Shown: one piece after another, positions 82 to 13,310 of the stretch
Numbering within the stretch: the stretch's first letter is position 1
Layout: each line of letters opens with the position of its first letter
Assembly (NCBI GenBank): GCA_016937995.1
Contig: JAFGVM010000085.1
Location: 1 to 13,310, forward strand
Length of the DNA: 13,310 bases
Origin: Candidatus Delongbacteria bacterium
Lineage (GTDB): Bacteria > UBA4055
Reading direction: 5' to 3'
Position numbers and translations under genes: made by a program
Notes under the pieces: model-generated
Databases searched by the model: none
The model's input: the letters and a program-made list of their open reading frames with translations, nothing else
What the model was told of the DNA's origin: nothing

Positions 82-1164
82 CTATTTAACAAAAACCATT
101 TTGTTCGTCATAATCATATCATTAGCTTTTAAAGTGTAGTAGTAAACTCCTGCACTTAAGTTTGTTGCATCAAAATCAACTGAGTGGTATCCTGCATCCA
201 TTTTACCATTAACCAAAGAACTAACAAGCTCTCCAGTGTAATTATAAACATTAAGCTCGGCTATTCCTTCACTCTTCAGAGAGAAGTTTATAGTAGTAGT
301 CGGGTTAAATGGATTTGGGTAGTTCTGTAAGAGTTCGAAACCGTTTGGAGTGCCTTGATTGTATTGAATCCCACTTGGTGAACCAGGTAGGACTACGGTA
401 GAAGCATCAAGTGTAACTGCAGCGATCCTGGCTAGTAATCTTCCCTCGATCGTCGCAGCTGTCATCAATGAAATTGCTTGATCAGCCATAATAGTTCCTT
501 TAAAGATAGAGTAAGAACCTAAAACCGCAGAAGCACCTACCTGCCAGAAAATATTCTCCGCTTTAGCTCCATTGATCAGAATAACCTGTGTTCCTGATGC
601 AGTATTTAATTCACTGGTAACCATCATAATAAAAACAGCATTTGAATCATTTTGAGCATCAAAAGTAAGATTCCCTGCAGTTATTTCAGCCATTCCGGTA
701 AACTTATAAAGACCGGGAGCAAGGATCTGATCTCCAAGGTTTCCTGAACCCGGATTTAAAAAATCACCCGTTGGAACCGGTGTTCGTTCAGCAGCATCAT
801 TATATGCTATGGTTAGATCACCCCGAGCTGTAGCTAACATTGATGCTGATGGCACAGAACCTGCCGGACCGGTAGCATCAACAGTATACATAATCCCGGT
901 AACTTCATTTAAACCAAATCCAGTAATGTATGATCCTGCAGCGGGACTTAGACCAACATCTCCTGTAATAGCTGATGTTGGAATATTTGAGATCTGTGAT
1001 GCTGCCAGAATTGCGAAACCGGATGTTGATCCCAGATCTACAGGGTCAATTGGTTGAGCTGTTATTGCGACAGGTACAATTAGGATCATCAAGAATGACA
1101 TTCCTTTTAGAATTTTTTTCCAGCCACTTTTAAGAGCTGCTGTTCTGCATAAGTTGATCTTCAT
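82..1164 (-). CDS. DUF3494 (ice-binding-like) protein with C-terminal T9SS sorting domain
   Basis: This is a 360-residue secreted protein. I start it at the ATG at 1164, which has AGAGAGG upstream at good spacing; the longer frame to 1239 would run into the neighbouring gene. Residues 1-36 form a signal peptide (hydrophobic MSFLMILIVPVAITA, cleavage near AITAQ). Residues about 42-260 are a DUF3494 domain, recognised from SGFAILAASQISN, GDVGLSPAAGSYITGF, GDLTIAYNDAA, LAPGLYKF, NLTFDA, NIFWQVG, FKGTIMA and AVTLDASTVV. After a short linker, residues 279-360 are a type A sorting domain (NYPNPFNPTTTINFSL, then SAGVYYYTLKAND). The family includes ice-binding proteins and adhesin-like beta-solenoids. 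The tail predicts export to the surface by T9SS machinery encoded elsewhere. It probably lies in one transcription unit with the lipoprotein paralogue upstream. Ice binding itself is not shown by the sequence. Confidence 0.9.
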   Translation of the reverse strand: MKINLCRTAALKSGWKKILKGMSFLMILIVPVAITAQPIDPVDLGSTSGFAILAASQISNIPTSAITGDVGLSPAAGSYITGFGLNEVTGIMYTVDATGPAGSVPSASMLATARGDLTIAYNDAAERTPVPTGDFLNPGSGNLGDQILAPGLYKFTGMAEITAGNLTFDAQNDSNAVFIMMVTSELNTASGTQVILINGAKAENIFWQVGASAVLGSYSIFKGTIMADQAISLMTAATIEGRLLARIAAVTLDASTVVLPGSPSGIQYNQGTPNGFELLQNYPNPFNPTTTINFSLKSEGIAELNVYNYTGELVSSLVNGKMDAGYHSVDFDATNLSAGVYYYTLKANDMIMTNKMVFVK

Positions 1165-1210: not shown

Positions 1211-2017
1211 TTACGGGTTAACCACTGTAGAAGCATCAATTGTTACCGCAGCACTAAAGGCTAACAATTTACCCACAATTGACGCACCTGTTTCTAAAGA
1301 AATTGATTGCTCGGCCATAATAATTCCTTTGAAAACAGATCCAGTTCCTAGAGTTGCCGATGTACCGACCTGCCAGAAAATGTTCCCTGCTTGTGCACCA
1401 TCGCTCAAAATAACTTGTCTTCCAGATGTTGTTGTTAATGTCGACGCTATCTGAATAATAAAAACAGCAGCTGAGTTACCTTCGGCATCGAAAGTTAGAT
1501 CTCCGGATGATATTTCAAGGGATCCGCTCGATTTATAAAGACCCGGTGTTAAAGTCAATCCACCGATATTTCCGGCAAGAAGTACCATATCTGTTGAAGT
1601 TCTTCCGGCAGCATCATTATATGCTATTGTTAAATCACCCTTGGCTGATGTAAGCCCTGCAACATCTACCACAGAACCTGCCGGACCTGTTGCATCAGTC
1701 GTATAAATTGTTCCGGTAACTTCTGTTGCGCCAAATCCTGAAATATATGAACCTGCGGCCGGACTTAATCCGATATTTCCTAAAATTACAGATGTAGGAA
1801 TATTTGAGAGTAAAGAACCTGCCAGAATTACAAAATTATCATTTGAACTTAAAATCACTGTTTCCTGTATTGTAGTTTGATGAGGTATGGTTACATCGTC
1901 ATTTGAATCCTCCTCCTCATCAGAGCATCCTGTAGCAACAAGAAACATTAGCATCATCATTGCAATTATAGCATTTTTTAGTGAAATACTTGTGAGATTT
2001 ATCAGTCTTTTTTCCAT
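1211..2017 (-). CDS. DUF3494 (ice-binding-like) lipoprotein
   Basis: This is a 268-residue protein. The ATG at 2017 is chosen because GAGGAGGG lies a suitable distance upstream; the ATG at 2035 would precede that site. Residues 1-30 are a lipoprotein signal ending in the lipobox VATG-C31, followed by an acidic Ser/Asp/Glu-rich tether (SDEEEDSNDD). Residues about 55-268 are a single DUF3494 domain with the same landmarks as the downstream gene: NIGLSPAAGSYISGFG, GDLTIAYNDAAGRT, LTPGLYKS, NIFWQVG, FKGIIMAEQSISL and AVTIDASTVVNP at the very C-terminus. It lacks the T9SS tail of its neighbour. The two are tandem paralogues that keep near-identical DNA stretches (for example around 1614-1637 and 790-820). 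It lies 36 bp from the csbD-like gene and is probably co-transcribed with it. The acidic residues after Cys31 may influence surface exposure, but this is inference. Confidence 0.9.
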   Translation of the reverse strand: MEKRLINLTSISLKNAIIAMMMLMFLVATGCSDEEEDSNDDVTIPHQTTIQETVILSSNDNFVILAGSLLSNIPTSVILGNIGLSPAAGSYISGFGATEVTGTIYTTDATGPAGSVVDVAGLTSAKGDLTIAYNDAAGRTSTDMVLLAGNIGGLTLTPGLYKSSGSLEISSGDLTFDAEGNSAAVFIIQIASTLTTTSGRQVILSDGAQAGNIFWQVGTSATLGTGSVFKGIIMAEQSISLETGASIVGKLLAFSAAVTIDASTVVNP

Positions 2018-2053
2018 AATAATTTCCCTCCTCATTAAGTTTTAAAAATATGT

Positions 2054-2344
2054 TTATTTAGTTTGTGTTTTTGTTTTCAGTTTTTTTATTTTCGTATCTG
2101 TTTTTGTTTTCAGTTTACTTAATTTATCATTTGCAGTTTTTAACAAATCAACTGTTTTGTTATACTTTGTGATCATTATCTTCGCATCTTCATGTGCTAT
2201 ACCCAGTTTCTCTTGAAGAGCACCCACAAGTTGCTGATATTTGCCAGCGATAGCGGCCAGCTCATCGTTCATCAAACTGCCCCAGTCATTCATCGCTTTT
2301 CCTCTTTGTTGTTTCCATTTGCCTTCTACACTATCCCAGTTCAT
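2054..2344 (-). CDS. CsbD-like stress protein with Lys/Thr-repeat tail
   Basis: This is a 96-residue, highly charged protein. Residues 1-60 match the CsbD family (UPF0337): MNWDSVEGKWKQQRGKAMNDWG, then LMNDELAAIAGKYQQLVGALQEKLGIAHEDA. CsbD proteins are small, stress-induced proteins of unknown biochemical role, induced by SigB in Bacillus. Usual members end near residue 60-70. Here a further ~30 residues form a Lys/Thr-rich extension in which LKTKT occurs twice (78-82 and 89-93). The start at 2344 is preceded by AGAGG at about 8 bp. One copy of the 63-bp promoter-like repeat lies about 90 bp upstream, and the two DUF3494 genes follow closely, so this is probably the first gene of a three-gene unit. 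Confidence 0.85.
   Translation of the reverse strand: MNWDSVEGKWKQQRGKAMNDWGSLMNDELAAIAGKYQQLVGALQEKLGIAHEDAKIMITKYNKTVDLLKTANDKLSKLKTKTDTKIKKLKTKTQTK
2060..2118 (-). repeat. Short internal repeat encoding LKTKT blocks at the CsbD C-terminus
   Basis: In the coding direction, CTGAAAACAAAAACA occurs twice, separated by ACAAAAATAAAAAAA-like codons. This gives the KLKTKTDTKIKK / KLKTKTQTK tail. It is a low-complexity, slippage-prone tract confined to the extension beyond the CsbD domain. Confidence 0.6.
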
Positions 2345-2433
2345 CTTATGGACCTCTTATTTTAATTTTTTGTAAGGATATTTCCAGTGTGCAATAAATT
2401 TTAGAATTTGATAAAGATTTTATGCACTTAATT

Positions 2434-2496
2434 CAATGTACAGTTAATTGCATAGAAGAACAATCGCCCAAAGGGATGAAAAAGTAGTTAATCCTT
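2434..2496 (-). promoter_or_regulatory. 63-bp duplicated promoter/upstream element, copy A (for csbD-like unit)
   Basis: This block is identical base for base to 3938-4000. Read on the minus strand it contains TTGTTC (2458-2463), a 17-bp spacer and TACATT (2435-2440), which fit a sigma-70-type -35 (3/6) and -10 (4/6) at ideal spacing. About 33 conserved bases lie upstream of the -35, including CCCTTTGGG, where an activator could bind. Identity stops just past the -10. The predicted transcript would start near 2427, giving the csbD-like gene a leader of about 80 nt. The promoter role is inferred; the repeat itself is certain. Confidence 0.6.
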
Positions 2497-2533
2497 TTAT
2501 AAAGTATAAGTTGGTTATTTTTTAGGTGAAGAG

Positions 2534-3007
2534 TTAAAAATAGAATCTTAACCCAAGTGCAGCATCAATAGCAAAATTTGTCGAAGGTGTCAGTTCCAAA
2601 GATGGAGCAACTTCGAGAAAAATATCGATCGGTGTTTCATGAGGTAACCATAATATTCCGAATACACCACGAACCGCGATTGAGCCTTCATCCTTATGAC
2701 TGTTAAAACGCCCGCCTATTCCATAATATAGTGGGAAGCGTTCTGTAGAGTTGATAGCATTAAAGGAATGCCACAAATAATCCATGTGAAAATGAATGTT
2801 GTCACCTGAATCATTTTTATCATTTTCAATAAACGACCATCCCAGAGCAAAATCCAATGCAGTTCTTTTAGATGTCCATAATTTCGCACTGATGCCTGTT
2901 GGTTCACCTATGATTATACCCAGACCAAATCCTTTTTCCTGAGCTTTTGCAAGGTTAATTATCGTCAGCAGTAAAATTACTGTGAATAGTATTTTGAATT
3001 GTTTCAT
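2534..3007 (-). CDS. Small outer-membrane beta-barrel protein
   Basis: This is a 157-residue exported protein. Residues 1-22 are a signal peptide (hydrophobic TVILLLTIINLA, cleavage after AKA). The mature part alternates polar and hydrophobic residues in short beta-strand-like segments (GFGLGIIIGEPTGISAKLW, TALDFALGWSF, FPLYYGIGGRF, SIAVRGVFGILW, IDIFLEVAPSLEL, FAIDAALGLRFYF). It ends in an aromatic Phe, the usual recognition signal for outer-membrane barrel insertion. The GLGIIIGEPTGISAKLW opening resembles DUF3996/BAPKO_0422-type barrels. About eight strands would fit the length. AAGGA precedes the start at 3007. It lies 72 bp downstream of the OmpA-like lipoprotein gene on the same strand and is probably co-transcribed with it. 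Function beyond being an outer-membrane protein cannot be stated. Confidence 0.75.
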   Translation of the reverse strand: MKQFKILFTVILLLTIINLAKAQEKGFGLGIIIGEPTGISAKLWTSKRTALDFALGWSFIENDKNDSGDNIHFHMDYLWHSFNAINSTERFPLYYGIGGRFNSHKDEGSIAVRGVFGILWLPHETPIDIFLEVAPSLELTPSTNFAIDAALGLRFYF

Positions 3008-3079
3008 TTTTCGATCCTTTTTATTTAAAAATTTAAAACTTTAGTGCATAAAGTCTTAGATATTTATTTAACACGCCTG

Positions 3080-3886
3080 TTATTTAACAACTACTTCAAA
3101 AAGTACTCTCATGTTTGCTTGTGCCTCTTCAGACTTGATATCTTCCGGTATTGGTTCATATAAAGCAGATCTATTTTCACCGTATCCTATCATTTCGAGT
3201 CTCTCAAGTTTTATTCCACCTTCTTCATAGATGTATGTCACGACTGTATTTGCTCTTCTTTCACTCAGTTCCTGGTTATATTCCTCTGTTCCGGAAGCTG
3301 ATGTATAGCCTGCAATACGGACTTTAATATCCGGATTTTCTTTAAGGATCTTGATATTAACTTTCAGTGCTTTTTTTCCTTCATCGGTAAGCGTAGCATC
3401 ATTGAACTTGAAATGTGTATCCTTTAGCATTACGAGTTTGTTAATTACTATCACCTGAGTATCAGTCACAATTTCAGGTATTGAGTCTGTCTTAAAACTC
3501 CAGTAGAAATTGTCAGCAAGAGTATTACCTGCGATATCCTTAACACCAGTAGAAATTTTACCAATATATTTAGTGTTCGGGATTAGATCACTAGCCTTAG
3601 TGAATGTGGCAGATGTACTTGTTGTTGCCAAAACATTCCCTGATATAAGTTCAAGAGATTCGCCCTGAAATACCTCGAATGTTTTAGAGTTTATAGTTTT
3701 CACATCAATAGGCTCGCTGAATGCAACACGTATTTTTGTGTGTAGCGGTACTCCCTGAGTAGCATGGTAAGGTACCATAAGAGTTACAAACGGTGGTGTA
3801 ATGTCTTTGATCTGTCTTGTAGATGCACATGAACCAATAAAAGCTGTCAGTGCGATGATGGCAGATAATTTTAAAAACTTGATCAT
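3080..3886 (-). CDS. OmpA-family lipoprotein with Big_5 (Ig-like) domain
   Basis: This is a 268-residue envelope protein. Residues 1-19 are a lipoprotein signal with lipobox FIGS-C20. Residues about 30-133 match a bacterial Ig-like Big_5 domain (ITPPFVTLMVPYHATQGVPL, RVAFSEPID, TFTKASDLIPNTKY, GVKDIAGNTLADNFYWSFKTD). Residues about 155-268 are an OmpA C-terminal domain (FKFNDATLTDEGKKAL, VRIAGYTSASGTEEYNQELSERRANTVVTYI, GYGENRS). OmpA domains normally hold peptidoglycan through an Asp and an Arg fifteen residues apart. Here the Arg (R211 in RRAN) is present, but the Asp of the usual GHTD is Ser196 (GYTS). An AGGAGG site lies just before the ATG at 3886. Copy B of the 63-bp promoter-like repeat begins 52 bp upstream. 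Likely role: outer-membrane anchoring or envelope integrity. Confidence 0.88.
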   Translation of the reverse strand: MIKFLKLSAIIALTAFIGSCASTRQIKDITPPFVTLMVPYHATQGVPLHTKIRVAFSEPIDVKTINSKTFEVFQGESLELISGNVLATTSTSATFTKASDLIPNTKYIGKISTGVKDIAGNTLADNFYWSFKTDSIPEIVTDTQVIVINKLVMLKDTHFKFNDATLTDEGKKALKVNIKILKENPDIKVRIAGYTSASGTEEYNQELSERRANTVVTYIYEEGGIKLERLEMIGYGENRSALYEPIPEDIKSEEAQANMRVLFEVVVK

Positions 3887-3937
3887 ACGATACCTCCTAA
3901 TTTAATATGTTTAAAATGCTTAAGACCGCATTAAAAA

Positions 3938-4000
3938 CAATGTACAGTTAATTGCATAGAAGAACAATCGCCCAAAGGGATGAAAAAGTAGTTAATCCTT
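3938..4000 (-). promoter_or_regulatory. 63-bp duplicated promoter/upstream element, copy B (for OmpA-like unit)
   Basis: This block is identical base for base to 2434-2496. On the minus strand, -35 TTGTTC (3962-3967) and -10 TACATT (3939-3944) are separated by 17 bp. The start of transcription would be near 3931, leaving about 45 nt of leader before the OmpA-like ATG, which has a strong AGGAGG site. The sequences on either side of the two copies are unrelated, so identity is confined to the element. It sits between the response regulator gene and the OmpA-like gene. Confidence 0.6.
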
Positions 4001-4025
4001 AAATATTTAATTGGTATATGTTAAA

Positions 4026-4679
4026 TCAAGTGTCTGAAATGTTCTGTGCGTAATTTGAGATCTGAAGACGACTGGATAAAGCCAATTTCTCAAGAATGTT
4101 ATGAACATGGCTTTTGACAGTGTATGTTGCAATATTTAGCTCATTGGCGATATCTTTATTGCTGCCACCTTCAACGATCAGGGCAATAATTTCTTTCTCA
4201 CGCTTGGTCATTCGAACAGCTTCACTTATTTTAATTTCTCCTTTCATAATAACATTTTCTGCTACCTGAAAAAAGAGTGAGGCTGCCATTGGTGGGGGTA
4301 GTATAGTTTTACCTTCGCTTGTTGATCTTATAGTTCTGATCAGATCTTCAACAGATGCGGTTTTTAAGATAAAACCATCAGCACCACCCTGAACAAAAGA
4401 TAGTATATCTGATTGTGTAGGTACAAGACCCATCCCGATGACTTTGATTTTTGGGATGTCATTTTTTAAGGATTTCAACACATCCAGACTGTTTTGATTC
4501 TGTAAACTGAAATCCAGAAGCACGATATCGGGTTTAGATCGAGTAGCTCTTTTAAGAGCAGTATCTCCATCTTGAACTGCACCAACAACGGAAATATCAG
4601 GTTTTTGTTTTAGCAACGAAGCTAGTCCTAAACGTAAAATCTTATTATCTTCTATTATGAGTACTTTGATCTTAGACAT
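4026..4679 (-). CDS. NarL/LuxR-family response regulator
   Basis: This is a 217-residue two-component response regulator. The start is set at the ATG at 4679 because AAGGA lies 9 bp upstream; the in-frame TTG at 4688 would abut that site. Residues 4-120 are a receiver domain: acidic pair E10/D11, phospho-acceptor D56 (IVLLDFS) and the conserved Lys in GFILKTAS. The usual Thr/Ser switch residue after beta-4 appears to be Gly83 (KVIGMG). Residues about 148-212 are a GerE-type helix-turn-helix (MTKREKEIIALIVEGGSNKDIANELNIATYTVKSHVHNILEKL). No histidine kinase is adjacent, so it is an orphan here. It lies upstream of, and in the same direction as, the OmpA-like, barrel, CsbD and DUF3494 genes, and is the obvious candidate to bind the 63-bp repeats. 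That link is inference. Confidence 0.93.
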   Translation of the reverse strand: MSKIKVLIIEDNKILRLGLASLLKQKPDISVVGAVQDGDTALKRATRSKPDIVLLDFSLQNQNSLDVLKSLKNDIPKIKVIGMGLVPTQSDILSFVQGGADGFILKTASVEDLIRTIRSTSEGKTILPPPMAASLFFQVAENVIMKGEIKISEAVRMTKREKEIIALIVEGGSNKDIANELNIATYTVKSHVHNILEKLALSSRLQISNYAQNISDT

Positions 4680-4867: not shown

Positions 4868-6349
4868 CTACAAGATATATTTGAACACGTTCCTGAAATG
4901 GTATCCATAGATCGAATATGTGATGGCCAAAGAGAAAAATTTTGGTTTCCTGAATATGGTCCAAATTAGTAATCTCCAATAATAAAACCTTGATCTATCA
5001 ACTATTCCAATAAACCAAACTGACTTGAATAATGCCTTTATATGAGTAATATCTAAATTTAATTTGAATTTATTCTTAGGTTTAAACTCTCTGAAAAATT
5101 GCTTGACCCTTTCATTGTATGGTTTTGAAGAATATATTCCGTCAATGATCTTTTTATATCCTGCAATTAATTTATCGTAAGATAATTTAGGAATAAAGTT
5201 CATTGTCATATCAACATTGTCACCGGTGATCTCATTGAGCAGTCTGTTCTCTTCATTCATACGTTCATAGAGTTTTGATCCCTTGGGAGCGTTCAGCAAT
5301 CCGACCATGGCAGTAATAATACCGCTTTTCTGAATGAGATCTGTCTGAGCTTTAAATATCGAGTTCGTGTCATTGTCAAAACCAACAATAAATCCACCTG
5401 TAACCTCAATCCCGAAATTCTGCATTTTATTTATGCAGGAGATCAGATCCCTATTTTTATTCTGTACTTTTTTGCACTCGTTCAGGCTGTCTTCATTCGG
5501 AGTTTCCACACCAACAAAAAGTGTATTCAATCCCATCTTTACCATTGCTCTCATAAGATCTTCATCATCTGCAATATCAAGTGATGCCTGAGTACTAAAA
5601 GAGAACGGGTATTTTTGAGCGATCATCCATTTTGTTATCGCAGGTATTATATTTTCTTTCAATTTCTTTTTATTACCAATGAAATTATCATCTGCAAAGA
5701 ACAGATTTCCTCTCCATCCGCAAAGATACAGTCTGTCCAATTCAGCGATGAGCTGCTCTATCTTTTTTGTTCTGAATTTATGCCCGAACAAACTTGTAAT
5801 ATTACAGAATTCACAGTTATAAGGGCAACCTCTTGAATATTGAATGCTCATAGAAGCATATTTCTTCATGTTCAATAAATCCCATCTCGGGACTGGAGAT
5901 CTTTCTATATCTGCAAATTCGTTAGTTGAATATAAATGTTTAGTTTGCCCTTTTTTCAGATCTTTTAAAAACTCAGGGAAAGTAATTTCAGCTTCATTCA
6001 GAATCAAATGGTCAACTTCATTAAAATCTTCAGGCTCTGAAGTGAACAATGGTCCTCCTGCAATTATCCTAATACCTCTTTTAATACATCTGCTTATAAC
6101 GTCAAACACTGATTTTTTCTGAATTATCATTGCGCTTATAAGCACAATATCGATCCCGTCTAAATCGGAATCTTTTAAGGGTGTTACGTTCATATCAATC
6201 AACCTTGTCTTATAGTTAGCCGGTAACATTGCAGCTATGGTAACTAATCCCAACGGAGGATGAGTTGCTTTTTTAGATATGAATTTTAACGCAAATTTGA
6301 AACTCCAGAACGTATCCGGAAACTTTGGATAAATTAATAAGGTATTCAT
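4868..6349 (-). CDS. B12-binding-domain radical SAM protein (DUF4070-type C-terminus)
   Basis: This is a 493-residue protein. Residues 1-135 form a Rossmann-like cobalamin-binding domain (MNTLLIYPKFPDTFWSFKFA, PPLGLVTIAAMLP, IIAGGPLF); the DxHxxG cobalamin motif is not evident, as in many family members. The radical SAM core (about 165-350) carries C175-x3-C179-x2-C182 (SRGCPYNCEFCNI) for the 4Fe-4S cluster, then FFADDNFIGN, VGVETPNEDSL and GFIVGFDND. The C-terminal ~130 residues resemble the DUF4070 extension of this subfamily. Relatives include hopanoid and other lipid or natural-product methylases, but the substrate here cannot be inferred. It is a solo gene: neither neighbour belongs to an obvious pathway with it. 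The start at 6349 has AAAGGCAG upstream. The C-terminus is rich in aromatic and basic residues. Confidence 0.9.
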   Translation of the reverse strand: MNTLLIYPKFPDTFWSFKFALKFISKKATHPPLGLVTIAAMLPANYKTRLIDMNVTPLKDSDLDGIDIVLISAMIIQKKSVFDVISRCIKRGIRIIAGGPLFTSEPEDFNEVDHLILNEAEITFPEFLKDLKKGQTKHLYSTNEFADIERSPVPRWDLLNMKKYASMSIQYSRGCPYNCEFCNITSLFGHKFRTKKIEQLIAELDRLYLCGWRGNLFFADDNFIGNKKKLKENIIPAITKWMIAQKYPFSFSTQASLDIADDEDLMRAMVKMGLNTLFVGVETPNEDSLNECKKVQNKNRDLISCINKMQNFGIEVTGGFIVGFDNDTNSIFKAQTDLIQKSGIITAMVGLLNAPKGSKLYERMNEENRLLNEITGDNVDMTMNFIPKLSYDKLIAGYKKIIDGIYSSKPYNERVKQFFREFKPKNKFKLNLDITHIKALFKSVWFIGIVDRSRFYYWRLLIWTIFRKPKFFSLAITYSIYGYHFRNVFKYIL

Positions 6350-7543: not shown

Positions 7544-7552
7544 TCGAATAAC

Positions 7553-7577
7553 CAATATCCAACAAGGAATGTCCAAT
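7553..7577 (+). repeat. Degenerate CAATATCCAACA-GGAATGTCCAAT repeat, copy 1
   Basis: This has the pattern CAAT-TCCAACA-GGAAT-TCCAAT. Related blocks lie at 12311-12347 and 12892-12929. It lies in the cvfB/FAD-dehydrogenase gap. Confidence 0.6.
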
Positions 7578-7583
7578 CATGAA

Positions 7584-7607
7584 GTAGGGGCGTAACACTT
7601 TACGCCC
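7584..7607 (+). repeat. GTAGGGG hairpin, GCGTA type, copy 1
   Basis: GTAG is followed by the perfect 8-bp stem GGGCGTAA (7588-7595), loop CACT, TTACGCCC (7600-7607). The same architecture occurs at 12867-12890 with a compensating A/T to T/A change in the top base pair. Confidence 0.75.
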
Positions 7608-7623
7608 ATCAACACGTTTAAAA

Positions 7624-7654
7624 ATGGATACCCGGATCAAGTCCGAGTATGTCA
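7624..7654 (+). repeat. GGAT...TCAAG...ATGTCA palindromic repeat, copy 1
   Basis: The arms ATACcCGGA (7628-7636) and TCCGaGTAT (7642-7650) surround TCAAG; the block ends in GTCA. It is closely related to 11015-11045 and more distantly to the 30-bp elements at 10972-11001 and 12394-12423. Confidence 0.65.
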
Positions 7655-10402: not shown

Positions 10403-10440
10403 TTTAAGTAAGGGTCGCAGATCTGCGACCCTTACTTAAA
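10403..10440. repeat. 38-bp perfect palindrome between galE and the cysteine-cluster gene
   Basis: TTTAAGTAAGGGTCGCAGA (10403-10421) is followed directly by its exact reverse complement (10422-10440), with no loop and no mismatch. It lies in the 232-bp region between the divergent galE and cysteine-cluster genes, so it could be an operator, a cruciform site or a dispersed palindrome. The GC-rich core GGGTCGCAGATCTGCGACCC looks like other dispersed elements here. Confidence 0.8.
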
Positions 10441-10518: not shown

Positions 10519-10917
10519 ATGAGTTTCTATGATGAAGGTGTTGATTTTGAATGTAAAAGGTGCGGTAATTGCTGCACCCGATCAGGTTATGTATTTATTT
10601 TTCAAAGGGATCTGGACCTTATACTGGAGAAAACCAATTATTCAAGATCCGAACTTGAGAAAAGATATTTGTCTAAACTTGATGATTATGTAGTATTAAA
10701 AGACCAGGGTAACGGAGCATGTATATTCTGGGATGATTATATCAAAGGCTGTAAAATATATGAAGCCAGACCGACACAGTGCAGAACTTTTCCGTTCTGG
10801 AATGCTATTATGTCTGATGAGGAGAGCTGGATAAATGCTATGGAGGATTGTCCGGGAATTGGTCAGGGAAATCATTTTACATTTGAAGAGATCGAAAAAC
10901 TGAGGAAGAAAATTTAA
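10519..10917 (+). CDS. YkgJ-family cysteine-cluster (CxxCxxCC) protein
   Basis: This is a 132-residue soluble protein of the zinc/iron-chelating YkgJ family (PF03692). The signature C12-x2-C15-x2-C18-C19 (FECKRCGNCCTRSG) is followed by C68 (GACIF), C78 (KGCKIYEARP), C88 (TQCRTFPFW) and C111 (DCPG). The family is thought to bind metal or an Fe-S cluster through these cysteines; its biochemical role is not settled. A strong GGAGGAG site precedes the ATG at 10519. The amidohydrolase gene follows about 160 bp later, the gap being filled with repeats. Confidence 0.9.
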   Translation: MSFYDEGVDFECKRCGNCCTRSGYVFIFQRDLDLILEKTNYSRSELEKRYLSKLDDYVVLKDQGNGACIFWDDYIKGCKIYEARPTQCRTFPFWNAIMSDEESWINAMEDCPGIGQGNHFTFEEIEKLRKKI

Positions 10918-10922
10918 AACAG

Positions 10923-10964
10923 TTGACAATGGACAATTGACAATGGACAATTGACAATGGACAA
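10923..10964 (+). repeat. Three perfect 14-bp tandem repeats (TTGACAATGGACAA)
   Basis: Three exact copies run at 10923-10936, 10937-10950 and 10951-10964, followed by a decaying partial unit (TGGAGAATG). The array starts 5 bases after the stop of the cysteine-cluster gene. A related ATTGACAATG is found at the end of cvfB (7528-7537). Confidence 0.85.
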
Positions 10965-10971
10965 TGGAGAA

Positions 10972-11001
10972 TGTCATCCTCGTGCTTGACACGGGGATCC
11001 A
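10972..11001 (+). repeat. 30-bp palindromic repeat, left member of an exact inverted pair
   Basis: The hairpin arms ATCCtCGTG and CACGgGGAT surround CTTGA, with a T-G wobble allowing a full 9-bp RNA stem. The whole 30 bp is the exact reverse complement of 12394-12423, on the other side of the amidohydrolase gene. Confidence 0.8.
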
Positions 11002-11014
11002 CAAATAAATCGTT

Positions 11015-11045
11015 ATGGATATCCGGATCAAGTCCGAATATGACA
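11015..11045 (+). repeat. GGAT...TCAAG...ATGACA palindromic repeat, copy 2
   Basis: The arms ATATcCGGA and TCCGaATAT surround TCAAG. It matches 7624-7654 at most positions. It lies in the leader of the amidohydrolase gene, 36 bp before the chosen start. Confidence 0.65.
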
Positions 11046-11080: not shown

Positions 11081-12310
11081 ATGGCAAAGAAGATCGTAAT
11101 TAAAGCAAATGTCCTTTACGATGGTAAAAAGAAAGACCTGAACAAATATATCGTTGTGGAAGGTAATAAGGTAGTTGAAGTTTCATCAAAGAAACAGAAA
11201 TTTGACTTTGAAGGTTTCGTTACACCTGCATTTATCGATGCACACTCTCACATCGGTATGTTCAGAGATGGCGAACCTATGGGTGAATCTGAAGGTAATG
11301 ATATCACAAGACAGTTTATGCCTATGAACGATCCTTTGAACAGTATCTATTTCGATGACAGAGCTTTCAAAGACGCAGTAGATTTTGGAGTTCTTTACAG
11401 CTGTGTCGTTCCGGGCAGCGGAAACTTATTGGGTGGTAGAGCAAAAGTGATCAGGCATTTCGTTGATAATGTAAAAGATGCAGAGATAAAGGATTACGGA
11501 TACAAGATGGCTCTTGGTTTCAATCCAAGATCTACTACAGACTGGAAAGGGGATAGACCTAATACACGTATGGGTGTTTATTCTATGCTTGAAGAAAAAT
11601 TTGATAAATTATTGATCAAGAAAGAAAAAGCTGAGATCACCAGAGATAAAAAGATATATGAGATAAATAAGAAGTCAAAATGCAAAGAGAAACTTTCAGC
11701 AAAAGAAATGGCATTTCAGAAGAAACAGGCAGAGAGAGAGTTTGTACTTGAGTTCGATCCGGAAGAGTTAGCTATATTAGATCTTCTTGCAGGAAAAAAG
11801 ACAGCAAAGATACATGTTCACAAGGAAGATGACGTTCTTTATCTGATCAAATTAGTTAAAAAATATAAGTTAAAAGCAACTGCTGATCATACCTGTGATG
11901 TTTTTCATAAAGAGATCTATGATGAACTTGGGAAAGCAGGAATTCCGGTTATCTTCGGTCCTCTCGGTGGAGTTGGTGGTAAAATAGAACTTGCTCATGC
12001 TTATTATCAAAATGCTTCACTTCTGATGAAATCTAAAGCTACATTTGGATTGATGACAGATCATCCTGTTATATGGACACCGAACCTTAGAGAAAGTTTA
12101 AAATATTTCCTGATCCACGGAATGACAGATGAAGAAGCTATTTCTGTGATAACATATAAGAATGCAAAACTTCTTGAGATCGATGATATACTTGGAACAG
12201 TTGAAAAAGGGAAGACCGCAAGTATTATCGTCTGGGATAAAGAACCATTGAATCTGGCAGCGTTCCCAACAATGGTCATGGCAGAAGGGAAAGTGATAAG
12301 GAAAAGATAG
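11081..12310 (+). CDS. Amidohydrolase, imidazolonepropionase-like (COG1228)
   Basis: This is a 409-residue metal-dependent hydrolase. I choose the ATG at 11081 because GGAG lies 6 bp upstream; the in-frame ATG at 11069 has no such site. The N-terminal beta-sandwich segment (1-45) leads into the TIM-barrel metal site: H55-x-H57 (FIDAHSHIG), H245/H247 (KIHVHKEDD), H270 (ATADHTCDVF) and D327 (MTDHPV). The C-terminal part (LLEIDDILGTVEKGKTASIIVWDKEPL) is the usual second half of the sandwich. The substrate is unknown; family members hydrolyse cyclic amides, dipeptides or related compounds. Residues 171-222 form a Lys/Glu-rich, probably helical stretch that appears longer than in typical homologues. 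No histidine-degradation genes are nearby, so hutI is not supported. Confidence 0.88.
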   Translation: MAKKIVIKANVLYDGKKKDLNKYIVVEGNKVVEVSSKKQKFDFEGFVTPAFIDAHSHIGMFRDGEPMGESEGNDITRQFMPMNDPLNSIYFDDRAFKDAVDFGVLYSCVVPGSGNLLGGRAKVIRHFVDNVKDAEIKDYGYKMALGFNPRSTTDWKGDRPNTRMGVYSMLEEKFDKLLIKKEKAEITRDKKIYEINKKSKCKEKLSAKEMAFQKKQAEREFVLEFDPEELAILDLLAGKKTAKIHVHKEDDVLYLIKLVKKYKLKATADHTCDVFHKEIYDELGKAGIPVIFGPLGGVGGKIELAHAYYQNASLLMKSKATFGLMTDHPVIWTPNLRESLKYFLIHGMTDEEAISVITYKNAKLLEIDDILGTVEKGKTASIIVWDKEPLNLAAFPTMVMAEGKVIRKR

Positions 12311-12347
12311 AACATTCAATATTCAACACGGAATGTTCAATGTTCAA
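12311..12347 (+). repeat. Degenerate ATTCAATATTCAACACGG repeat, copy 2
   Basis: Directly after the amidohydrolase stop comes an ATTCAAT-ATTCAACACGGAATGTTCAATGTTCAA pattern, including the 7-bp inverted repeat AACATTC (12311-12317)/GAATGTT (12331-12337). It is related to 7553-7577 and 12892-12929. Confidence 0.65.
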
Positions 12348-12349
12348 CC

Positions 12350-12375
12350 GTAGAGGACGATTTCTTTTCGTCCCC
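12350..12375 (+). repeat. GTAGaGG hairpin, GACGA type, copy 1
   Basis: GTAGAGGACGA (12350-12360), loop TTTCTT, then TCGTCCCC. One mismatch (A12354) interrupts what would be an 8-bp stem. The same type occurs at 13282-13307. Confidence 0.65.
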
Positions 12376-12393
12376 AAAACGCAATAAAAATAA

Positions 12394-12423
12394 TGGATCC
12401 CCGTGTCAAGCACGAGGATGACA
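12394..12423 (-). repeat. 30-bp palindromic repeat, right member of an exact inverted pair
   Basis: This is the exact reverse complement of 10972-11001 over 30 bp. With that copy it brackets the amidohydrolase gene in inverted orientation. Confidence 0.8.
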
Positions 12424-12480: not shown

Positions 12481-12870
12481 ATGCCAAAAGCAGAAGGAAT
12501 GACATTTGAATTTCAGGATGAAAGTGCGATCAGACCTGAATTACTTGAAACTATAGATTATAATGGTAATAAGCAGGAAATTACTTACGATACTGATGAA
12601 CTCAATGCAGTTTGCCCATTCTCCGGTCTTCCTGATTTTGGAGTTCTGAGAATTTTATATGTGCCTAAGAAAAAGCTTATTGAGCTTAAATCACTGAAGT
12701 ATTATATAACTTCTTTCAGAAATGTTGGTATCTATCAGGAAGCTTTAACGAACAGGATATATAATGACCTGTTCAAGCTGCTTGATCCTGAGTATCTGAG
12801 GATCGAGACTGATTATAATACCAGAGGCGGGATCGATGCGAATTGTGTAATGGACAGTGAGATGGTGTAG
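12481..12870 (+). CDS. queF: NADPH-dependent 7-cyano-7-deazaguanine reductase (preQ1 synthase)
   Basis: This is a 129-residue cytoplasmic unimodular (short) QueF. It reduces the nitrile of preQ0 to the aminomethyl of preQ1 in the queuosine tRNA-modification pathway. The catalytic Cys45 (LNAVCPFSG) and Asp52 (LPDFG) have the 7-residue spacing of the Bacillus enzyme. The NADPH-binding motif ELKSLKYY (68-75) and Glu of YQEAL are present, and RGGIDAN closes the fold. The residue before that Glu, His in the Bacillus enzyme (HE), is Gln here. AAAGGAG precedes the start at good spacing. The stop TAG is the TAG of a GTAGGGG hairpin element (12867-12890), so the last residues may have been reshaped by that repeat. 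No other queuosine gene is in the window. Confidence 0.96.
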   Translation: MPKAEGMTFEFQDESAIRPELLETIDYNGNKQEITYDTDELNAVCPFSGLPDFGVLRILYVPKKKLIELKSLKYYITSFRNVGIYQEALTNRIYNDLFKLLDPEYLRIETDYNTRGGIDANCVMDSEMV

Positions 12871-12890
12871 GGGCGTATCACTATACGCCC
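12867..12890 (+). repeat. GTAGGGG hairpin, GCGTA type, copy 2, supplying the queF stop
   Basis: GTAG is followed by the perfect 8-bp stem GGGCGTAT (12871-12878), loop CACT, ATACGCCC (12883-12890). The TAG at 12868-12870 is the queF stop codon. It is the counterpart of 7584-7607. Confidence 0.75.
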
Positions 12891-12891
12891 G

Positions 12892-12929
12892 GAATATCCA
12901 ATGTCCAACACGGAATATCTAATATTCAA
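12892..12929 (+). repeat. Degenerate GAATATCCAATGTCCAACACGG repeat, copy 3
   Basis: This block has the same pattern as 12311-12347, with TCC replacing TTC in the first half. It is sandwiched between the queF hairpin element and the terminator. Confidence 0.6.
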
Positions 12930-13281: not shown

Positions 13282-13307
13282 GTAGGGGACGATTCCCATT
13301 CGTCCCC
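13282..13307 (+). repeat. GTAGGGG hairpin, GACGA type, copy 2
   Basis: GTAG overlaps the perfect 8-bp stem GGGGACGA (13285-13292), loop TTCCCAT, TCGTCCCC (13300-13307). It lies 22 bp after the stop of the small gene. It is a repaired version of the mismatched stem at 12350-12375. Confidence 0.75.
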
Positions 13308-13310
13308 AGA

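Follow-up and report, generated by a model that had tools for sequence, protein, structure and literature searches.

The genes considered here lie on the minus strand of a window of 13,310 nucleotides (the whole stretch of DNA that was analysed) from a 2.75-Mb Candidatus Delongbacteria MAG. Read in the direction of transcription, they encode a radical SAM/B12-binding/DUF4070 protein, a response regulator, a Big_5/OmpA-domain protein, a 157-aa outer-membrane-like protein, a CsbD-family protein and two ice-binding proteins (Table 1). A 63-bp block occurs twice, once between the genes for the response regulator and the Big_5/OmpA protein (copy 2) and once between those for the 157-aa protein and the CsbD protein (copy 1). 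No operator of its own was seen in the window for the radical SAM gene, and no promoter was identified for the regulator gene itself. Radical SAM-like genes precede the regulator in several Ignavibacteria too (L214:14645-16123; L110; L221, L223, L227).

The tandem ice-binding genes are about 73-76% identical in blocks, with the Por secretion tail present in one only. Elsewhere in the window, short dispersed repeat families occupy intergenic positions (7546-7654, 10904-11045, 12310-12423, 12862-12929 and 13282-13308) and include a perfect 30-bp inverted pair (10972-11001 / 12394-12423). A loopless perfect 38-bp palindrome at 10403-10440, with arms TTTAAGTAAGGGTCGCAGA, is possibly a bidirectional terminator.

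Table 1. Features of the repeat-bearing locus, in window coordinates, with the basis for each assignment.
Feature	Position	Strand	Basis
Second ice-binding protein, with Por secretion tail	82..1164	-	Pfam; homologs behind sites elsewhere
Ice-binding (DUF3494) protein, probably in csbD operon	1211..2035	-	Pfam; homologs behind sites elsewhere
CsbD-family protein, first gene downstream of copy 1	2054..2344	-	Pfam; homologs behind sites in other phyla
Copy 1 of 63-bp block: predicted promoter before csbD and ice-binding genes	2434..2496	-	Identity to copy 2; non-Delongbacteria model E 4.6e-12
Putative -10 TACATT (FCB type TAnnTT), copy 1	2435..2440	-	Enlarged set: TA at +19 in 61/82 sites, TAnnTT in 41/82
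Putative -35 TTGTTC, copy 1, overlaps operator end	2458..2463	-	Sequence; spacing to TAnnTT fixed (82 sites)
Predicted operator, copy 1 (columns -17 to +20)	2460..2497	-	Weight-matrix score 53.3; about 45 bits over these columns (83 sites)
157-aa outer-membrane-like protein, probably in ompA operon	2534..3007	-	No Pfam match; sites in G004, G014 and G063 directly precede homologs
Big_5/OmpA-domain envelope protein, first gene downstream of copy 2	3080..3886	-	Pfam; in other phyla, sites precede Big_5 homologs
Copy 2 of 63-bp block: predicted promoter before ompA	3938..4000	-	Identity to copy 1; non-Delongbacteria model E 6.6e-11
Putative -10 TACATT, copy 2	3939..3944	-	As copy 1
Putative -35 TTGTTC, copy 2	3962..3967	-	As copy 1
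Predicted operator, copy 2 (columns -17 to +20)	3964..4001	-	Weight-matrix score 53.0
Orphan NarL/LuxR-type response regulator, likely operator binder	4026..4679	-	Response_reg + GerE (Pfam); ortholog co-occurrence and adjacency with sites
Radical SAM/B12-binding/DUF4070 gene, conserved regulator neighbour	4868..6349	-	Pfam; 57% identical homolog directly behind site in G063; similar regulator neighbours elsewhere

Sequence comparison found no base difference between the two blocks over 63 bp, and the minus-strand sequence of both is AAGGATTAACTACTTTTTCATCCCTTTGGGCGATTGTTCTTCTATGCAATTAACTGTACATTG. A looser register of 78 nt (2424-2501 / 3928-4005) is 92% identical, and the flanks are therefore close to unrelated. 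Both blocks point toward a gene start, copy 1 toward csbD (ATG at 2344) and copy 2 toward ompA (ATG at 3886). Chance is not a credible origin for a 63-bp repeat within 13 kb. The identity, the unrelated flanks and the shared orientation had all been claimed in a preliminary description of this DNA, and each held when re-checked. The search of the complete genome that it had proposed returned exactly two copies, each before a codirectional gene and none scattered. The count stays at two when three mismatches are permitted over the central 35 bp, and the third-best BLAST match in the genome, after the two copies, has an E-value of 0.28. A mobile or genome-wide dispersed element is ruled out by there being just two copies, both of them before genes.

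The core of the block, TTCATCCNNNNGGGCGATTGT, is present in other Delongbacteria (G004, G005 and G008). In G004 it stands before LapA-CsbD genes, just 3' of the orthologous response regulator gene, and it occurs there also as a divergent pair, one member of which faces a homolog of the window's outer-membrane protein. In G008 it precedes LapA-CsbD-ice-binding genes. A scan of genome contigs located the core between genes in KSB1, Caldithrix, Ignavibacteria and Marinimicrobia, with the sequence upstream of it conserved as well. The core was matched exactly in 35 records, many of which were chance occurrences inside genes (Alistipes, Clostridia, Actinomycetes and others) and were dropped. A weight matrix was built from 31 seed sites (the sites used score 26 to 70), and it gave no matches at a score of 10 or more in 400 kb of shuffled sequence. 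Ignavibacteria carry up to about 34 sites per genome, and 70 of the 79 KSB1 genomes have no match to the site model at E 1e-3.

An independent sequence model, made from 29 sites of which none is from Delongbacteria, was run on 13 Delongbacteria genomes. It recovered both window sites (E-values in Table 1) and six other Delongbacteria sites at about 1e-5 or better, after which there is a gap to E 0.03. Nothing further in the window's own genome was better than E 0.2 (the next best match is at E 0.29), so that in this genome the regulon probably comprises no more than the two promoters.

A similar core, with its second arm inverted, was seen in Phycisphaerales (L100:7922-7965, L101:862-908), directly 3' of a GerE-domain gene and 5' of a SurE gene. 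The N-terminus of that GerE-domain protein is apparently membrane-spanning. The core and the GerE gene are possibly an analogous regulator-site pair in Planctomycetes.

The conserved part of the sites is about 37 bp long, AAAGAnnTAGTYCCTTTTTCATCCYTTTGGGCGATTG, and its end forms the -35. This element spans motif columns -17 to +20 and holds about 45 bits over 83 sites, or about 55 bits if the -10 is included. When 40 sites are stacked without gaps, 34 of them have TA exactly 19 nt past the motif and 20 have TAnnTT there, and at the other offsets from 8 to 39 the counts are at most 11 and at most 2, respectively (the enlarged set is given in Table 1). Counted from the terminal TTG, this position therefore makes a promoter of -35, 17-bp spacer and -10. 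Because the operator ends on the TTG it overlaps the -35, and with the -10 at standard spacing this is the arrangement of a class II promoter. A codirectional gene start follows within 400 nt at 83 of the 95 testable sites, 92 of 99 sites lie outside genes of over 100 aa, and the median distance from site to start codon is 91 nt.

The preliminary description had read TTGTTC, a 17-bp spacer and TACATT in the blocks, and these are present in both copies. Its view of the blocks as promoters with an activator site is supported by some 80-100 sites in several phyla, which share the 37-bp operator, the spacing to TAnnTT and the position before gene starts. We consider both blocks, on the support of these comparisons, to be two promoters of a multi-phylum regulon, each with a predicted operator. 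The further suggestion that conservation upstream of the -35 marks a regulator-binding site stands, in that a long conserved operator is found, and is refined as to extent: the operator takes up some 37 bp of the 63, and recent copying explains the identity of the remainder. Between genomes, 22 of the block's 63 columns show poor conservation, yet the two window copies agree at all of them (chance about 3e-13); the spacer, too, is not conserved from genome to genome. Constraint accounts for the identity of the operator, and the remaining identity needs recent copying of the promoter cassette by duplication or gene conversion. Recent duplication, gene conversion and strong constraint had been offered as alternatives; constraint and recent copying both apply, each to its own part of the block.

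Among the first genes behind sites (89 in all), those encountered most often encode ice-binding proteins (7), response regulators (6), KaiC-type ATPases (5), Big_5 proteins (5), baeRF release-factor-like proteins (5), outer-membrane beta-barrels (5) and CsbD proteins (4). Genes for YtxH-like, UspA-like and other small membrane proteins, recognised by eye only, also lie behind sites. In other genomes and phyla, sites stand immediately before homologs of the window's outer-membrane protein, CsbD protein and ice-binding proteins, and of the Big_5 part of its OmpA gene. A search of related genomes had also been proposed in advance, and it is in this search that the conserved core appears in other phyla before recurrent gene families (ice-binding, Big_5/OmpA, CsbD, outer-membrane, KaiC and baeRF). 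Judged by these families, the targets resemble those of an envelope and stress response.

The response regulator has a receiver domain (PF00072, 4e-19) and a C-terminal GerE helix-turn-helix (PF00196, 7e-17), the combination found in the NarL/FixJ family. Its nearest solved relatives are VraR (E 3e-34), NarL (1e-29) and DevR (5e-24). None of the NCBIfam equivalog cut-offs is reached, the best score being 141.6 bits for NarL against a cut-off of 250. The alignment indicates that the phospho-acceptor Asp56 and the acidic pocket are kept (IIEDN and LLDF motifs). The switch position, which is Ser/Thr in paralogs, is Gly (residue 84) in the window regulator and Gly/Asp in most orthologs. This suggests a receiver with a non-standard switch in a protein that the domain matches still place in the NarL/FixJ family. 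Control by phosphorylation appears uncertain because the usual switch Thr/Ser is replaced by Gly. No histidine kinase gene was recognised next to the regulator, the neighbours being judged by inspection. Many Ignavibacteria have tandem arrays of two or three paralogous regulator genes, and a site lies between the genes (e.g., G081:C47:30110-31611, G089:C4:25750-27252 and G014:C110:72823-74321), and in some genomes the helix-turn-helix of the second copy has diverged.

Within Delongbacteria, regulator orthologs were found only in the genomes G000, G004 and G005, and in all three the sites adjoin the gene. In G008, which gave no regulator match, a site is present close to the end of a contig. 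In the Ignavibacteria class we compared 149 genomes, calling a strong site at E<=1e-3 and an ortholog at E<=1e-42, the latter cut-off being chosen after the bimodal scores were seen. Site and regulator occur together in 33 of these genomes, the site only in 4, the regulator only in 5 and neither in 107; the Fisher p-value of 2e-23 is inflated by shared ancestry, and the absences are blurred by gaps in the MAGs. A strong site occurs in none of the 8 Ignavibacteria-class genomes that have only weaker paralogs. For the 79 KSB1 genomes the corresponding counts are 6, 3, 1 and 69, with p=2e-6 at the ortholog cut-off and p=0.001 when a sister clade is admitted, values to which the same inflation and blurring apply. 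G014 and three of the KSB1 genomes contributed training sites, and the remaining genomes are independent. Sites without a detected ortholog are found in G008, G017, G021, G028, G049, G090 and G151, and an ortholog without strong sites in G036 and G067; gaps in the MAGs may explain part of this discordance. In all 35 cases with a site on the regulator's contig, the nearest site is on the same strand as the regulator gene; it usually lies 50-90 nt 3' of the regulator stop codon or between tandem regulators. Co-occurrence and adjacency thus tie the regulator, which the preliminary description had put forward for a binding test, strongly to the site and make it the likely candidate for the binder.

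We propose that the orphan NarL/LuxR-type regulator would bind the operator of about 37 bp that ends on the -35, possibly sitting on it as a pair of dimers spaced by about two turns of the helix. The bound regulator would recruit RNA polymerase to the FCB-type -10 TAnnTT(G) beyond the 17-bp spacer, i.e., by class II activation. Two neighbouring operons would be driven in this way, one comprising ompA and the outer-membrane protein gene and the other csbD and the two ice-binding protein genes, and the pair in the window would be a small local version of the envelope/stress regulon that is so much larger in Ignavibacteria. We put the probability that the blocks are regulated promoters, bound and activated by this regulator so as to drive the two operons, at roughly 80%. 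From the sequences we infer that the regulator binds the operator directly, that it activates and does not repress, that its dimers are arranged in this way and that the signal is a stress.

It is unlikely, in our view, that the motif is an operator-promoter bound by some other protein or by a partner response regulator, with the adjacent regulator merely a frequent target. Response regulator genes do themselves lie behind some of the sites, several genomes have sites without a detected ortholog, and some genomes carry two or three tandem paralogs. However, many genomes resemble the window in having the site 3' of the regulator gene, which it does not drive, yet the presence of the two is tightly coupled, and no other regulator recurs near the sites. 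A further option is that an alternative sigma factor recognises the whole element and needs no activator, as a long near-invariant sequence before stress genes and a sharp spacing are what a stress sigma factor would leave. We regard this as very improbable: the 37 bp conserved upstream of and including the -35 extend far beyond the length of a sigma -35, the -10 is an ordinary TAnnTT at 17 bp, and the gene that co-occurs with the sites encodes a response regulator.

Recent copying clearly happened, given the 22 poorly conserved columns that are identical, and the blocks might then be no more than a duplication, a gene conversion tract or a small mobile repeat without a shared regulatory role. 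That account is hardly tenable when the genome has two copies only and the core is kept in other phyla before related genes, with the promoter spacing fixed. A structured RNA or leader element in place of a DNA operator would suit the near-palindromes in the core and the frequent position just 3' of the regulator stop codon. The chance of this seems close to negligible, as many sites do not adjoin a regulator and the element, being positioned upstream of the -10, would not be transcribed from this promoter. No Rfam match was found in 2040-4100 up to E 5.

If the regulated-promoter reading is correct, the regulator and its operator, both recognisable from sequence, define a regulon and give a role to an unnamed subfamily of regulators in groups whose transcriptional control is little studied (Delongbacteria, KSB1, Ignavibacteria, Calditrichota and Marinimicrobia). 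The site would give a likely envelope/stress context to the many unannotated genes behind it, and the pair is testable in cultured relatives. A short perfect repeat in one MAG can also flag a regulon that is common to several phyla. More tentatively, and with the odds somewhat against it, the system could be a general-stress/envelope response of the FCB group, either ancient or shared by horizontal transfer, in which a dedicated subfamily of orphan regulators with an altered receiver switch and a long near-invariant operator does the job of an alternative sigma factor. Among the open-licence papers that the searches listed, none describes the core sequence, the motif or the regulon in its title or abstract. 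The mechanism is of a known kind, and the regulator-site pair appears to be undescribed.

VraR, NarL and DevR/DosR belong to the same two-domain NarL/FixJ (LuxR-type) family as the window regulator. Operators of the VraR/NarL/DevR type contain short dyads, such as ACT..AGT, located upstream of or over the -35, and the sites described here often contain GAACTAGTTC. Unlike those operators, the one here is about 37 bp long and nearly invariant across phyla, and its regulator differs in falling short of any equivalog cut-off, in the Gly/Asp of the switch column in most orthologs and in having no kinase recognised alongside by inspection. The Bacteroidetes-type housekeeping promoter, whose consensus (TTG / TAnnTTTG) is employed in published papers, is matched here by a -10 of TAnnTT(T/G) at a fixed distance from TTG, although the -35 is here embedded in a long conserved operator. 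The general stress regulons SigB of Bacillus and EcfG of Alphaproteobacteria have targets that include CsbD, YtxH-like, UspA-like and small membrane proteins, and the target types behind the sites overlap with these. SigB and EcfG regulons are run by alternative sigma factors, whereas the regulon described here is apparently run by a response regulator, and it adds to such targets the ice-binding, Big_5/OmpA, KaiC and baeRF genes.
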